The position numbers and the translations under genes are program-made. From Candidatus Heimdallarchaeota archaeon (GTDB taxonomy: Archaea > Asgardarchaeota > Heimdallarchaeia > Heimdallarchaeales > Heimdallarchaeaceae), in the NCBI GenBank assembly GCA_030603505.1, contig JAUVXQ010000007.1:1-29961 (forward strand): a DNA stretch of 29,961 nucleotides. The letters run 5' to 3'. The notes beneath the pieces were generated by a model. It did no database searches. It saw nothing but the letters and a program-made list of their open reading frames with translations, and was not told the DNA's origin. Shown here in pieces: positions 20,388 to 26,176 of the stretch. Positions within the stretch are counted from its first letter, which is position 1; the number at the start of each line of letters is the position of its first letter.

Positions 20388-20558
20388 ATGATGATAGTAC
20401 AGTCTAAAGTACGCGAATATATCAAAGAGCTCGGCGACTATAAAGTTGGCGGAGACTTACTTAAAGCTCTTGATGAGAAACTCGCTATAATCGTTAAGGC
20501 TGCAGCTGGTCGTGCTAAAGCTAATGGTCGTAAGACCGTTTCTGCTAGAGACCTCTAA
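20388..20558 (+). CDS. Short histone-fold protein, face-to-face (HTkC-like) type, copy 1
   Basis: A 56-residue basic protein: SKVREYIKELGDYKVGGDLL, then KALDEKLAIIVKAAAGRAKA and a final NGRKTVSARDL. The helix-strand-helix order and the end T-V-x-A-R-D-L are those of the histone fold, as in short archaeal proteins of the face-to-face (FtF) histone class such as HTkC of Thermococcus; that class name is from memory. It starts at ATG 20388, or possibly ATG 20391. Codons are the CTC/GGC/GGT/CGT set expected of a highly expressed gene, unlike its neighbours. A long polypyrimidine terminator follows. A near-identical second copy lies 8204 bases downstream. Confidence 0.8.
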   Translation: MMIVQSKVREYIKELGDYKVGGDLLKALDEKLAIIVKAAAGRAKANGRKTVSARDL

Positions 20559-20641: not shown

Positions 20642-22069
20642 TTATCTTTTCTTGAAATAGTAGTCTAGTGTTTTACGATTTTTTATTATTTCTTCTTTTT
20701 TTCCACTTACTTTTTTTTCTAGTTCTGGTTTTCTCTCTTTCTCCATTATTCTTTCTTTTCTTTGTTTTTGAGCCTTTTTTAAATCCTCTTCTGATTTTAT
20801 CGGTATTAGCTCTTTTGATTTTTCTACCCCTAATTCTCTCTTTACTTTTTCCCAATTTAATTCGAACCTTGGTATCTCTTCTTTTTTTTCCCATCCCCAT
20901 TCTACTCCCTCTAATCTTTTTAAATACCCTATTCTTTCTATATTCTTTAGAACTGTCAATGTTTTTCTATTCTCTTTTTCATCTTTGAAAGATTCACACT
21001 TGTGGTCACATATTCCCCCTTCATGCTGCTTTATACACTTCCATAAAAATCTCCACTCTGGCGGTCTTCTTGATCCTTTATATCTGATACAATATCCCTT
21101 GTGTTTTGCTTTAAATTTATTATATGCTTTCCTATTATCAGGTCTATATCGTATATTTTGCGTTAAACTATAGTAAAAATCCTTCGTTACTTTAACCCCT
21201 GCTTCATAGTTTGAGCAAAATATTAAGTGGTAAAGTTGTCCTTCTTTTGGTGCGAAGGGTAAAAGCAACACATATCTAAACCATTTGAGTAGTCTTCTTT
21301 TATATAATTCTAAGAATTTCTTTTGTTTATCTTCCCTTTCTCCTTTTTTTAATATGTTCTCTCTCCATGAATCTCCCCCAAACAGATTATCCGCTTCAAT
21401 TACTGTTGATAGCTCCTTTCCTGTCCATTTTTCCTTTTCATTAACTGTTGGTAGAGCTTTAAATTTACCTCTTCCTAAAAACCAGTCTGATGTGAATAAG
21501 AATATAATGAATTCCGTTCCTGTTTTAAATGTCGATTTTATCCTCTGTTGTGCCACTTTTTCTATTATTTCCCAGTTTACACTTCGTAGTGGATCAAAGT
21601 AATATAGACCAAAACTATATTTGTATTTTTCAATTTCAGATAGTGCTTCATCTATGTCTGTATTCAATAAATATATCTTAAATTCTTCTTGACTCTTGAT
21701 GCTTCTTGCTATATCAGCTGGTATTATTGGCCATCTTTTTCTTATTATATTTTGTAGTTTATTATAACATTCCTCGTTTTTTTCAATCAAAAAGAGTCTT
21801 AAATTCCGAGTTGTGTGTAAGTTATCACATTTTAATTTCAATGCACAACCTGCTGAACCCAGAATTAATTCTCCTGTATCTTCAATCTTTACCTCCCCTG
21901 TTGCTGCATCCATTTCAATAATTGCGGTAGAGTGTCGATGATTTTTACTGGGTCCTCCTGAAACTATTTCCCACCAGAAAGGATAGTATCTGCTTATAAT
22001 TTGCGATTTTAATTTAGTACCCATTTCTCCACTTAAACAAATTGCATCACCATCAAAATCTAGAGGCAT
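20642..22069 (-). CDS. TcmP-like (three-Cys-motif partner) protein with C-terminal PIP-box
   Basis: A 475-residue soluble protein. Its N-terminal ~130 residues match the TcmP pattern: LKSQIISRYYPFWWEIVSGG, then GSAGCALKL and FLIEKNEECYNKL, reminiscent of a nucleotide- or methyltransferase-like fold. TcmP proteins are typically encoded beside a radical SAM protein with a Cx3Cx2C motif, and such a gene is divergent here. Around residues 345-358 there are clustered Cys and His (CIKQHEGGICDHKC), possibly metal-binding. The last ~90 residues are highly charged and ends RKTLDYYFKKR. R465-x-x-L468-x-x-Y471-F472 fits a PCNA-interacting (PIP) box placed at the very C-terminus as in archaeal replication and repair proteins. 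The ATG has a GAGGAG site. Function unknown. Confidence 0.65.
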   Translation of the reverse strand: MPLDFDGDAICLSGEMGTKLKSQIISRYYPFWWEIVSGGPSKNHRHSTAIIEMDAATGEVKIEDTGELILGSAGCALKLKCDNLHTTRNLRLFLIEKNEECYNKLQNIIRKRWPIIPADIARSIKSQEEFKIYLLNTDIDEALSEIEKYKYSFGLYYFDPLRSVNWEIIEKVAQQRIKSTFKTGTEFIIFLFTSDWFLGRGKFKALPTVNEKEKWTGKELSTVIEADNLFGGDSWRENILKKGEREDKQKKFLELYKRRLLKWFRYVLLLPFAPKEGQLYHLIFCSNYEAGVKVTKDFYYSLTQNIRYRPDNRKAYNKFKAKHKGYCIRYKGSRRPPEWRFLWKCIKQHEGGICDHKCESFKDEKENRKTLTVLKNIERIGYLKRLEGVEWGWEKKEEIPRFELNWEKVKRELGVEKSKELIPIKSEEDLKKAQKQRKERIMEKERKPELEKKVSGKKEEIIKNRKTLDYYFKKR

Positions 22070-22227
22070 GTAGTTTCTCCTCGTTGTTTATCAATTTTGT
22101 TTATATTTAAATTGTACATTTTCTATTTCAATTGTTTATTTATCTTTTATGTCTCTTTAGAAAAGTTAAAATTTCTCCCGTATTAAATATGAGTTAGAGG
22201 ATAATATTACTGAAAACAAGACTAGCT

Positions 22228-22243
22228 TTTAGTAGCTACTAAA
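22228..22243. promoter_or_regulatory. 16-bp perfect palindrome in the divergent TcmP/radical SAM promoter
   Basis: TTTAGTAGCTACTAAA is its own reverse complement. It lies in the ~210-base region between the two divergent starts, 45 bases before the TTG of the radical SAM gene. It is a good candidate for a shared operator. Confidence 0.5.
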
Positions 22244-22288
22244 GTGAGTTTTTTAATAGAACATTCTAGTGGCTAGAAGGTGAGAACA

Positions 22289-23059
22289 TTGACTAAAGGA
22301 ACAAAGGAATGGGCTGAATCAAATGTTAATTTCAGTAAAGGCTGTGCTAATGGTTGTTTATATTGTTATGCAAGACGTATGGGGAACAGATTTGGTTGGA
22401 AACCCACAGAAGATTGGATAAATATGGAAAACAAAGTCTGGATGGGTGAAAAGAAATTTCATAAAAGAGTAGGTCGGATTATGAGTCCATCTAGTCATGA
22501 TATTACTACAGCAAATGTCGATTTAGGTATAAAGGTATTTATTAACATACTTTCTGCTGGAAATAAACTTCTTATTGTTACAAAACCGAATCCTGCAGTT
22601 GTTGAAAAAATCTGCAACCAGCTAAATAAATGGAAATCACAGATTCTGTTTAGATTTACTATAGGCACACTAAATGATGAGGTAAGAGCGTATTGGGAAC
22701 CATATGCTTCAACTATACAAGAACGATTAGATACAACTAAATCTTTGTATAATAATGGATGGGCTACCAGCGTTTCCGTTGAACCATTTTTAGATGAGAC
22801 TGTGATCAAATTAGTTGAAGAATTATTACCTTATGTTTCTGATACAATATGGGTTGGATCTATGAATAAAATCCATGTACCGAAGGAGTTATGGACTAAA
22901 GAACTCAGTCAATTATACTCTCCTACATCTCTTAAAAAGAAGTACGAGAAGCTACAGAAATTGGGTAACTCAAAAATCAGGTTTAAAGATCATTTTATAT
23001 CTATAATGAATACAGACATCTTCATTACAAAAACCTGTGTAGAAATTAGGGTAAATTAG
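22289..23059 (+). CDS. Radical SAM protein with Cx3Cx2C cluster motif, TcmP partner
   Basis: A 256-residue protein. C19, C23 and C26 in SKGCANGCLYCYARRMG form the CxxxCxxC site for a [4Fe-4S] cluster and S-adenosylmethionine. The following strands are those of a radical SAM barrel: RIMSPSSHDIT, LLIVTKPNP, ILFRFTIGTLND, ATSVSVEPFLD and DTIWVGSMNKI. It resembles the short SplB/Gp37-Gp68-type proteins found next to TcmP genes. There is no extra C-terminal cluster domain. I prefer TTG 22289, with AAGGTGA five bases ahead, over GTG 22280, which overlaps that ribosome binding site. The substrate is unknown. The gene is divergent from the TcmP-like gene across a palindromic promoter region. Confidence 0.75.
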   Translation: MTKGTKEWAESNVNFSKGCANGCLYCYARRMGNRFGWKPTEDWINMENKVWMGEKKFHKRVGRIMSPSSHDITTANVDLGIKVFINILSAGNKLLIVTKPNPAVVEKICNQLNKWKSQILFRFTIGTLNDEVRAYWEPYASTIQERLDTTKSLYNNGWATSVSVEPFLDETVIKLVEELLPYVSDTIWVGSMNKIHVPKELWTKELSQLYSPTSLKKKYEKLQKLGNSKIRFKDHFISIMNTDIFITKTCVEIRVN

Positions 23060-23260: not shown

Positions 23261-24922
23261 GTGGCAATAAATATAAATAAGAGATATAAAAAAGCAGCTT
23301 TTTTAGCTGTCATTTTAATAATAGTATCAACATTTGTTGATGAAAGAACATTTTACATTATAGGAGAGGAAGAGAATGAAACAACTAGTGTTGAACTAGA
23401 ATGGTTTTTTACTACTGGTGCAATCGTTCGTACTTCTCCCGTTGTAGCAGACTTAGATGGGGATGGGACGCTGGAAATCCTCGTAGGATCACGTGATCGT
23501 AACCTTTATTGTCTTAGTCATACAGGAACAGTTGAATGGATATTTACGACCAATTCGAACATCTTATCTTCACCAGCTGTTGCAGATTTAGATGGGGATG
23601 GAAGGCTCGAAATCCTTATTGGCTCGTATGATCGTAACCTTTATTGTCTTAGCCATACAGGAACCGTAGAATGGACATATCATACTGGGGATGATATTTA
23701 TTCATCTCCATGCATAGCAGACATTGATGGAGATGGTTCTTTAGAAATACTGATTGGATCATATAGTAACCAACTTCTTTGCATAGATTGCAATGGTATA
23801 GAGAAATGGGTGTATGCAACCGATAGTACGATTTTTTCTTCTCCTAGTGTAGCAGATCTTGATGAAGATGGAAAACTGGAAGTGTTAATCGGATCATGGG
23901 ATGGGAGACTCTATTGTATAGATTACACTGGGAACATGAAATGGAATTTTGCTACTTGGGGTGTAATTACTTCTTCTCCTAGTGTAGCAGACATTGATGA
24001 AGATGGAAAACTGGAAGTGTTAGTAGGATCATGGGATGGGAGACTCTATTGTATAGATTACACTGGGAACATGAAATGGAATTTTACTACAGGTGATTCT
24101 ATTATGTCTTCTCCTTCTATAGCTGACATAGATCGAGATAATAATCTTGAAATCTTAATTGGTTCAGTAGACAATAACCTTTATTGTGTAGATTATACTG
24201 GAACCGAGAAATGGAATTATACTACTGATGGTTCAATATCCTCATCTGCCTGCGTTGTAGACCTTGATTCAGATGACATGTTGGAAATACTTGTAGGATC
24301 ATTTGACCACAAACTACATTGTATAGATGACGATGGATCAGGTATATGGTCTTATGAAACAGATCATGAAATAGATTCATCACCATGTGTTTCTGATATT
24401 GATGATGATGGTATTTATGAAATACTTATAGGATCATTTGATCACAACATTTATTGCTTTTCTATGGACAATGCGGATGCATCAGGTTTTAGTCCATGGC
24501 CATGCTTCCGTGGTTCGACATTTCATACTGGTAGGATGGATAGTGATGGAGACTACCTTGATGATCTAACAGAAGAATTTTACTCTACTAATAGTTCTAA
24601 TCCTGACACTGATAACGACGGCATTTTAGACGGTTGGGAAGTTCAATATGCTCTTAACCCTCTATACGATGATGCTTATGATGATAAAGATAATGATGGT
24701 TTAACTAATTATGATGAATTATATATTTACCATACTTCCCTATTTGACTCCGATACTGATAACGATGGTCGAAATGACGGTTGGGAGGTTAATCATGGTC
24801 GCAACCCTCTCAAATGGGATAGATGGGGATTGCTTTTTGGTCTCTACCTTCTCCCTGTATGGGTTCTATGTGTAGCTACACCTTTTATTGTACGATATAG
24901 GTTTAAACGTTCCAAGAGTTGA
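23261..24922 (+). CDS. Membrane-anchored eight-bladed beta-propeller with calcium-binding repeats
   Basis: A 553-residue surface protein. Residues 1-35 are a basic start plus a hydrophobic helix (signal or anchor). Residues about 45-410 hold eight repeats of ~45 residues with consensus VADLDGDGxLEILVGS, LYCIDYTG, and a W-x-F/Y-x-T turn, combining FG-GAP-like Asp loops with PQQ-like blades; eight blades would close one propeller. Then two or three thrombospondin type-3-like calcium loops follow (DTDNDGILDGWE, DSDTDNDGRNDGWE). A C-terminal membrane helix (about 523-545) and RYRFKRSKS tail follow. It is probably exposed outside the cell and may bind ligands or partner cells. The start is GTG 23261 with an AGGGGAT site. 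Blades 4 and 5 are almost identical in DNA. Confidence 0.75.
   Translation: MAININKRYKKAAFLAVILIIVSTFVDERTFYIIGEEENETTSVELEWFFTTGAIVRTSPVVADLDGDGTLEILVGSRDRNLYCLSHTGTVEWIFTTNSNILSSPAVADLDGDGRLEILIGSYDRNLYCLSHTGTVEWTYHTGDDIYSSPCIADIDGDGSLEILIGSYSNQLLCIDCNGIEKWVYATDSTIFSSPSVADLDEDGKLEVLIGSWDGRLYCIDYTGNMKWNFATWGVITSSPSVADIDEDGKLEVLVGSWDGRLYCIDYTGNMKWNFTTGDSIMSSPSIADIDRDNNLEILIGSVDNNLYCVDYTGTEKWNYTTDGSISSSACVVDLDSDDMLEILVGSFDHKLHCIDDDGSGIWSYETDHEIDSSPCVSDIDDDGIYEILIGSFDHNIYCFSMDNADASGFSPWPCFRGSTFHTGRMDSDGDYLDDLTEEFYSTNSSNPDTDNDGILDGWEVQYALNPLYDDAYDDKDNDGLTNYDELYIYHTSLFDSDTDNDGRNDGWEVNHGRNPLKWDRWGLLFGLYLLPVWVLCVATPFIVRYRFKRSKS
23837..24089 (+). repeat. Recent tandem duplication of one propeller blade (135-bp period)
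   Basis: The segments 23837-23954 and 23972-24089 are nearly identical (about four mismatches in 118 bases by hand count), offset by 135 bases or 45 codons. Other blades in the gene are far more diverged, so this is a recent blade duplication or conversion. Confidence 0.8.
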
Positions 24923-25279: not shown

Positions 25280-26176
25280 CTATGGCATAAAGCCTCCACC
25301 GGGAGGGCAACTATTTGGATCATTAGGATCTGTTGCTCCAAATCTCCAATGAAGCTCTAGCCAATCTGACCATCCATCACCATCTGTATCTACACTTAAC
25401 CAATCTGTGGATTCATAATTATAATCTTCATTGCAAGAACCTGTATATTCTTCCCAATCAGTTAATCCATCACCATCAGAATCTTGGTTTTCAGGCGTGC
25501 TACTAGCACTAAGAGGATCAGAACCAATGATGATTTCAAGTCCATCAGAGAAACCATCGTTGTCACAATCAGGGTTGAGCCAATTTGTTCCCCAAAGATT
25601 AACTTCGACACCTGTACTTAGTCCATCACTATCATGGTCAGTATGGCCATCACTGGAGATTGTAGGGTCAAAATCCACACCTTGATAAGAGTGAGTCACT
25701 TCCCAACCATCCAAGAGATAATCATTATCTGTATCACTATCCAATGGGTCAGTTCCCTCATCTATTTCTTCTCCATCTAAGAGTCCGTCATTGTCCGTAT
25801 CAGGATCAAGCGGTTCCGTTCCATAAGTAATTTCATCTCCGTCTTCTAACTCATCACCATCAGTATCAGAATTCATAGGATCAGTACCATGTACAAATAT
25901 CTCATCGTAGTCAGATAATCCATCGAAATCTGAATCTGAATTATCAAAGTATGTTCCTTCAACCTCTTCTCCTTTATCAGATATCCCATCACCATCAGTA
26001 TCAACAGGAGTATAACTCAAAGCATAGTCTACTGCAGCACAAGCATTCACTAACCCATAACCATGATATTCAAATTCATAGCCAGTTTCTTCATCACCAT
26101 TCTTTTTTACTACCGCATAATCCAACGTTCTTATACAATTCTCGATAGATTTTTTACTCGTTTCATCCCACACCAT
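25280..26176 (-). pseudogene. Subtilase C-terminal fragment with thrombospondin type-3 calcium repeats; catalytic domain missing
   Basis: The 298-codon frame begins (ATG 26176) with IENCIRTLDYAV ... YHGYGLVNACAAVDYAL, the segment that closes the catalytic domain of S8 subtilases. The remainder is ~200 residues of acidic calcium loops of the type DSDTDNDGLLDGEEIDEGTDP, at least seven copies, ending with CPPGGGFMP. The catalytic Asp, His and Gly-Thr-Ser motifs should lie upstream, but the upstream frame has no such motif and soon meets stops. There is no signal peptide. It is therefore a 5'-truncated remnant of a secreted protease. Its calcium repeats resemble those of the propeller protein 350 bases away. 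A short adhesive product cannot be excluded. Confidence 0.65.

Follow-up and report, generated by a model that had tools for sequence, protein, structure and literature searches.

A TcmP (three-Cys-motif partner protein) encoded in a 29,961-nucleotide stretch of DNA from a Candidatus Heimdallarchaeota archaeon, here called the window, ends in a PIP-box-like motif, and ends of this kind recur in other archaeal TcmPs. The best reading of these sequences is that archaeal TcmPs became clients of PCNA repeatedly. For the window protein itself, we lean towards the view that it docks PCNA through the motif RKTLDYYF and would thereby recruit its radical SAM partner to DNA for the modification or mending of bases. 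The pairing of TcmP with a radical SAM protein is a recurrent one in bacteria and archaea, and the portions of the literature covered by our search give no function for the pair. If archaeal TcmPs do bind the clamp through such recurrent tails, this would point to the substrate of the pair, namely DNA at forks or repair sites; to our knowledge, it would be the first direct pointer of this kind. The case illustrates that a linear motif may give a clue to what an orphan enzyme family acts on.

Table 1. Features of the TcmP locus, in positions of the window.
Feature	Position	Strand	Basis
TcmP gene, three-Cys-motif partner protein, 475 aa	20642..22069	-	TIGR04474; PADLOC PDC-M41A
RlmJ-like class I methyltransferase-fold region (predicted), about residues 1-300 (limit by eye)	21170..22069	-	
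K/E-rich C-terminal extension (residues 428-475), a helix followed by a disordered part	20645..20788	-	Homologue comparison and AlphaFold2 model
PIP-box-like motif RKTLDYYF (residues 465-472), with KKR and the stop after it	20654..20677	-	
Divergent intergenic region, 210 bp	22070..22279	.	Sequence by eye
Radical SAM partner, 259 aa, Cx3Cx2C at C22, C26 and C29	22280..23059	+	

The window protein belongs to the TcmP family, as the earlier note had proposed without database searches: it scores 83.5 bits (E 2.2e-23) against the NCBIfam profile TIGR04474, above the cut-off of 53, and the PADLOC model PDC-M41A matches it with an E value of 1.5e-8 (PADLOC cut-off not given). An AlphaFold2 model based on 68 sequences reached a mean pLDDT of 92.2, and the protein models as an RlmJ-like methyltransferase fold. 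Residues E52, A55, G58, E96 and D159-P160-L161 are conserved in this region. A fold search of BFVD returned generic methyltransferase matches only, and a sequence search of the PDB with the window TcmP gave no match.

The same note had paired this gene with a divergent radical SAM gene, and the pairing also holds. Both open reading frames are present, and the partner combines the Cx3Cx2C motif, in the form CANGCLYC, with a radical SAM barrel, which places it in the radical SAM superfamily. Against individual families it stays below the cut-offs, with 27.8 bits for Pfam Radical_SAM (cut-off 29.5), 23.7 bits for the spore photoproduct lyase family SPL (PF20903, cut-off 27) and 18.0 bits for DUF5131/Gp37-Gp68 (curated cut-off 28.9); an assignment of the window partner to the Gp37/Gp68 type, made earlier, is not borne out by the last of these scores. 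The PADLOC model PDC-M41B matches residues 8-48 only (E 5e-4, PADLOC cut-off not given), and the best result of a PDB sequence search, a miniGq construct at E 0.0062, is not a meaningful match. A true DUF5131 protein, with 280.9 bits, is the partner of another PIP-tailed TcmP, at locus L008.

Inspection of the intergenic region by eye revealed, on the complement strand, a GAGGAG at 22077-22082 ahead of the TcmP gene and, near 22104-22111, an AT-rich stretch of TATA-like composition. Within 22277-22291, the radical SAM gene may have its true start in a TTG at 22289, which is directly preceded by GAAGGTGAG; the conserved KGTKEWA of its homologues starts at this point. Other ORFs of the window were likewise read by eye. 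A very short histone-like ORF of about 56 aa (20388-20558) faces the TcmP gene in convergent orientation, and a T-rich stretch separates the two. By the pair, 23261-24922 and 25280-26176 encode repeat-rich proteins with beta-propeller-like and DxDxDG calcium-type repeats, and the second protein resembles the closing part of a subtilase from which the front is missing. The window also contains IF5B-like, mevalonate-kinase-like and isopentenyl-phosphate-kinase-like ORFs, which together with the histone-like ORF and others suggest archaeal DNA.

The C-terminus of the window TcmP reads ...KKEEIIKNRKTLDYYFKKR. About 48 K/E-rich residues extend past the point at which most of the listed homologues stop, and finish with RKTLDYYFKKR. 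A charged, disordered-looking tail with this terminus had been described before, and the AlphaFold2 model agrees with that description: pLDDT is below 50 at residues 462-475, with a short helix at 469-473. PIP-box positions 4, 7 and 8 are suitably occupied by L468, Y471 and F472, and position 1 is R465 instead of the Q that the box calls for. The motif lies in the disordered segment at the extreme C-terminus, three residues short of the stop. According to two papers, archaeal PIP motifs are found at the extreme C-terminus (PMC3504372, PMC6881253), with those of three archaea at the very C-terminus (PMC6881253), and the PIP motif of Dpo4 has no Q (PMC3504372). A PDB search with the 25-residue tail yielded one designed coiled coil (E 4.1).

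Unless another pattern is named, the counts below refer to a core pattern, [LIM][DESTN]x[FYW][FYWM] followed by no more than three residues, which had been tightened after inspection of the data. A first search with the window TcmP found 383 homologues, of which 120, including the window, were listed. The 119 others share 45-54% identity with the window TcmP across 85-95% of its length. Most of them stop near window residue 425-430, some carry other, different extensions (P0043, P0061, P0076 and kin), and among these listed matches none of the 119 has a PIP-like end; the core pattern occurs in 1 of the 120, the window itself. On this set alone, we find what the earlier note had named as speaking against its own proposal, no conservation of the terminal motif in close homologues.

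The same absence favors an alternative in which the motif arose by chance, as a low-complexity stop-loss extension that happens to end LDYYF. The tail DNA is purine-rich and also open in a second frame (ORF 20673-20900), so that a read-through extension is conceivable. Chance is at odds with three observations. When the final 15, 30 or 50 residues of the window TcmP are shuffled, the core pattern falls at the terminus in only 0.66%, 0.12% and 0.06% of cases. Of the remaining ORFs of at least 150 aa at the archaeal loci, 168 once TcmP and FEN1 are set aside, none carries it. Like ends also recur in many other archaeal TcmPs. Weighing both sides, we regard a chance origin as rather improbable.

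This recurrence, brought out by wider searches, reverses the verdict of the nearest-homologue set. Scanning genome contigs with the single window TcmP sequence gave no relative, and a scan with a TcmP alignment gave 12. Two of these, the thaumarchaeal L006 and L008, have KGLEEFF and KGTLEEWF as their termini, and at both loci the radical SAM gene is divergent; the other 10 are without a PIP-like end. Four of these 10, the thaumarchaeal loci L004, L005, L007 and L009, show the same divergent layout. A search with the L008 protein returned 517 matches, and 105 of the 120 listed were new. The core pattern is present in 20 of these 105 listed proteins, with ends such as GLDRFF, TLEDFF, TLDDFF, GLDKYF and TLERWF. 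Taken together, it closes 21 of 225 long TcmPs, the window included. An earlier strict pattern had matched 23 of the 225, compared with a mean of 0.30 and a maximum of 3 after shuffling of the last 30 residues (500 rounds). The linkers ahead of the motif vary in length and sequence. Two 541-aa TcmPs (P0152 and P0168, the latter named from a Nitrososphaera) have a cysteine-containing C-terminal extension and no PIP-like end.

We placed the motif on a quick tree of 223 of the 225 long TcmPs (P0191 and P0208, below 405 aa, were omitted), from which all columns past window residue 420 had been removed. On this tail-free tree, in which according to a program warning the long branch of the window joins other long branches, the motif label requires at least 10 changes, 4 of them forced by starred branches. 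The window falls in a clade of 7 rows, and the motif is found in the window alone among them, so one sequence carries the case in that lineage. Since 204 of the 225 long TcmPs have no such motif, and the divergent loci L004, L005, L007 and L009 also do without it, clamp binding would be at most optional. The PIP-like tail would then best be understood as a means of recruitment that was gained or lost many times.

Comparable ends are found in short TcmPs. A search with TIGR04474 covered samples of three groups, which we label Chloroflexota (phylum of G006), Halobacteriota (phylum of G009) and Nitrososphaeria (class of G002) after their centre genomes, Dehalococcoidia, Methanoregula and Thaumarchaeota, and gave matches in 43 of 201 (32 over the cut-off), 19 of 246 and 20 of 250 genomes (18 over the cut-off), respectively. 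PIP-like ends of archaeal short TcmPs include RTLDSYFE, GLDGFF, TEITKWFT, TEITDFFE and NITKWM as well as two with the canonical Q, QTFLERFF (L088) and QRQISEFY (L096). A profile built from ten PIP-ended short TcmPs retrieved 106 proteins, and those named by source are of the Nitrosopumilus type or from other Thaumarchaeota. The core pattern matches 46 of the 106. A looser pattern matches 53, against a shuffled mean of 1.5 and a maximum of 7. In all of these counts, database rows are 90% clusters and not independent events, and the long, short and genome sets overlap (L108 is L008, and P0226 is the protein of L112). Other short archaeal TcmPs end in NQTLF, NKTLF, NETLF or QTKLF (P0284, P0286, P0287, P0289-P0291; L086, L087, L101), and these ends resemble QLTLF, given as the clamp motif of crenarchaeal PolB1 in PMC3504372.

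By the core pattern, the motif occurs in a part of the archaeal TcmPs and in none of the controls. Eight of 37 archaeal genome TcmPs carry the core pattern (2 of 18 from Halobacteriota and 6 of 19 from Nitrososphaeria) compared with 0 of 38 from Chloroflexota and from viral contigs, the hosts of which are not known to be bacteria (Fisher p 0.0023). Before six bad picks among 81 were removed (L069 and L078, fronts of split genes; L089, a radical SAM protein; L110, in another frame; L118 and L123, truncated), the counts were 8 of 40 and 0 of 41 (p 0.0024); these sets omit L062, L091, L102, L111 and L114, which have no ORF of 200 aa. A looser pattern matches 2 of the 29 loci from Chloroflexota and 1 of the 10 from viral contigs, with ends of a strand-like kind (VLRFL).

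A radical SAM ORF lies within about 1.5 kb of the TcmP gene at 20 of the 23 loci from Nitrososphaeria, 13 of the 21 from Halobacteriota and 21 of the 30 from Chloroflexota. We also considered that the motif might sit on this partner instead of TcmP and rejected this, the core pattern being present in 0 of 56 partner ORFs. At two places (G003:C57:1455-4722 and G004:C1:147156-150061; cf. L004 and L001), a gene for a short TcmP is close to one for a long TcmP, with a radical SAM ORF between them by coordinates.

The form of the motif is familiar from FEN1. We searched ten genomes of TcmP relatives, a set to which the window's own genome does not belong, with TIGR03674 and found FEN1 in all ten (11 genes). 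Eight of the 11 tails read TTLESWFG, HTLEQWFG, DSLDSWL, NLEQWFK, SLEKWFG, NLEQWFT, NLDQWF and TLEKWFG; 7 of these 8 match the core pattern, and by eye none of the 8 has a Q at position 1. TcmP and FEN1 from one genome end in GTLEEWF and HTLEQWFG (G002), and those from another in GLEEFF and NLEQWFT (G001). PCNA (TIGR00590) matches were obtained in 8 of the same 10 genomes, 7 of them over the cut-off.

This likeness bears on a second alternative, according to which the motif contacts TcmP itself by folding back, or else engages the radical SAM partner, its resemblance to a PIP box being superficial. The short TcmPs would fit such a role, in that their motif stands only a few residues past the body. 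In the long TcmPs, however, it follows linkers of variable length and sequence, and the tail of the window protein is detached and of low confidence in the AlphaFold2 model. Moreover, the 38 Chloroflexota and viral-contig TcmPs of the control lack the motif even though most Chloroflexota loci have radical SAM neighbors, and its form is that of FEN1 from the same genomes. We therefore consider fold-back or partner binding improbable. On sequence grounds, there is good support for reading the motif as a PIP box in archaeal TcmPs as a whole, in which it is recurrent, terminal and FEN1-shaped. The check proposed in the earlier note, whether TcmP homologues in other archaea keep such a terminal motif, finds it recurrent in archaeal TcmPs more widely and absent from the closest listed relatives of the window, and the R at position 1 departs from the Q-type motif named there.

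A third explanation shares the clamp-binding step and differs in purpose: the pair might be an antiviral defence module that reaches invading, replicating DNA via PCNA. Long TcmPs are rare and patchy, with matches in 7 of 400 genomes of the class of G002 (5 full-length), 8 of 400 of the phylum of G006 (2 full-length) and 1 of 398 of the phylum of G004. Both PADLOC models that match the pair, PDC-M41A and PDC-M41B, bear a prefix that we take to mean phage defence candidate. TcmP also appears in a table of the Hna phage-defence gene study (PMC12445080) and in a prophage table (PMC12429752). Against a defence role, the literature searched gave no defence test of TcmP, a scan of viral contigs with the long TcmP family confirmed no relative, and some partners belong to a family that hints at repair. 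We hold a defence purpose possible, on balance unlikely.

In the mechanism that we favor, the C-terminal RKTLDYYF of the methyltransferase-fold TcmP would enter the PIP pocket of PCNA, and the flexible K/E-rich tail would let TcmP bring its radical SAM partner to DNA under replication or repair, where the pair might chemically modify or mend a base at forks or repair patches. If archaeal TcmPs are recurrent PCNA clients, the pair probably acts on DNA at such sites. In the open-licence literature searched, we found no paper with both TcmP and PCNA, nor one with both three-Cys-motif and clamp. Partners of the SPL family, scoring above the Pfam cut-off of 27, stand beside L085 (67.9 bits) and L082 (58.5 bits), the TcmPs of which end in RTLDSYFE and VRITDFLED. 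By eye, the L085 partner has no Cys at the site matching the mutated residue of the lyase 4fhg and is therefore probably no classical photoproduct lyase. SPL-type partners favor repair a little. More tentatively, and with slightly more doubt than confidence, we propose that archaeal TcmPs form a class of PCNA clients, in which a module that bacteria also have acquired a PIP box several times over in hosts that use PCNA, and that TcmP with an SPL-like partner would perform replication-coupled radical repair or marking of DNA bases.

Comparison with known systems sets the window pair apart in several respects. RlmJ is the 23S rRNA A2030 N6-methyltransferase; the window TcmP shares only 13% identity with it, its top Foldseek match is a different methyltransferase (3dtn), and its motif IV reads DPL, unlike the DPPY of RlmJ. 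Compared with spore photoproduct lyase, the window partner remains under the PF20903 cut-off, and the L085 and L082 partners, at 75.6 and 70.5 bits, are far under the NCBIfam equivalog cut-off of 400. The window locus agrees with the known pair of TcmP and three-Cys-motif radical SAM protein (TIGR04474; PADLOC PDC-M41A/B) in its TcmP score and the adjoining Cx3Cx2C gene. It differs in the added C-terminal tail with its PIP-like end, in a partner below the DUF5131 cut-off and in its divergent layout, whereas at L001-L003 and L012, which have the same kind of partner, the partner gene is downstream on the same strand. Archaeal FEN1 is a known nuclease client of PCNA, whereas the fold of TcmP resembles that of methyltransferases and no role is known for it; the FEN1 PIP box (eight tails) and the window TcmP motif nevertheless share the extreme C-terminal position, the TLxxWF shape and the lack of a Q at position 1.
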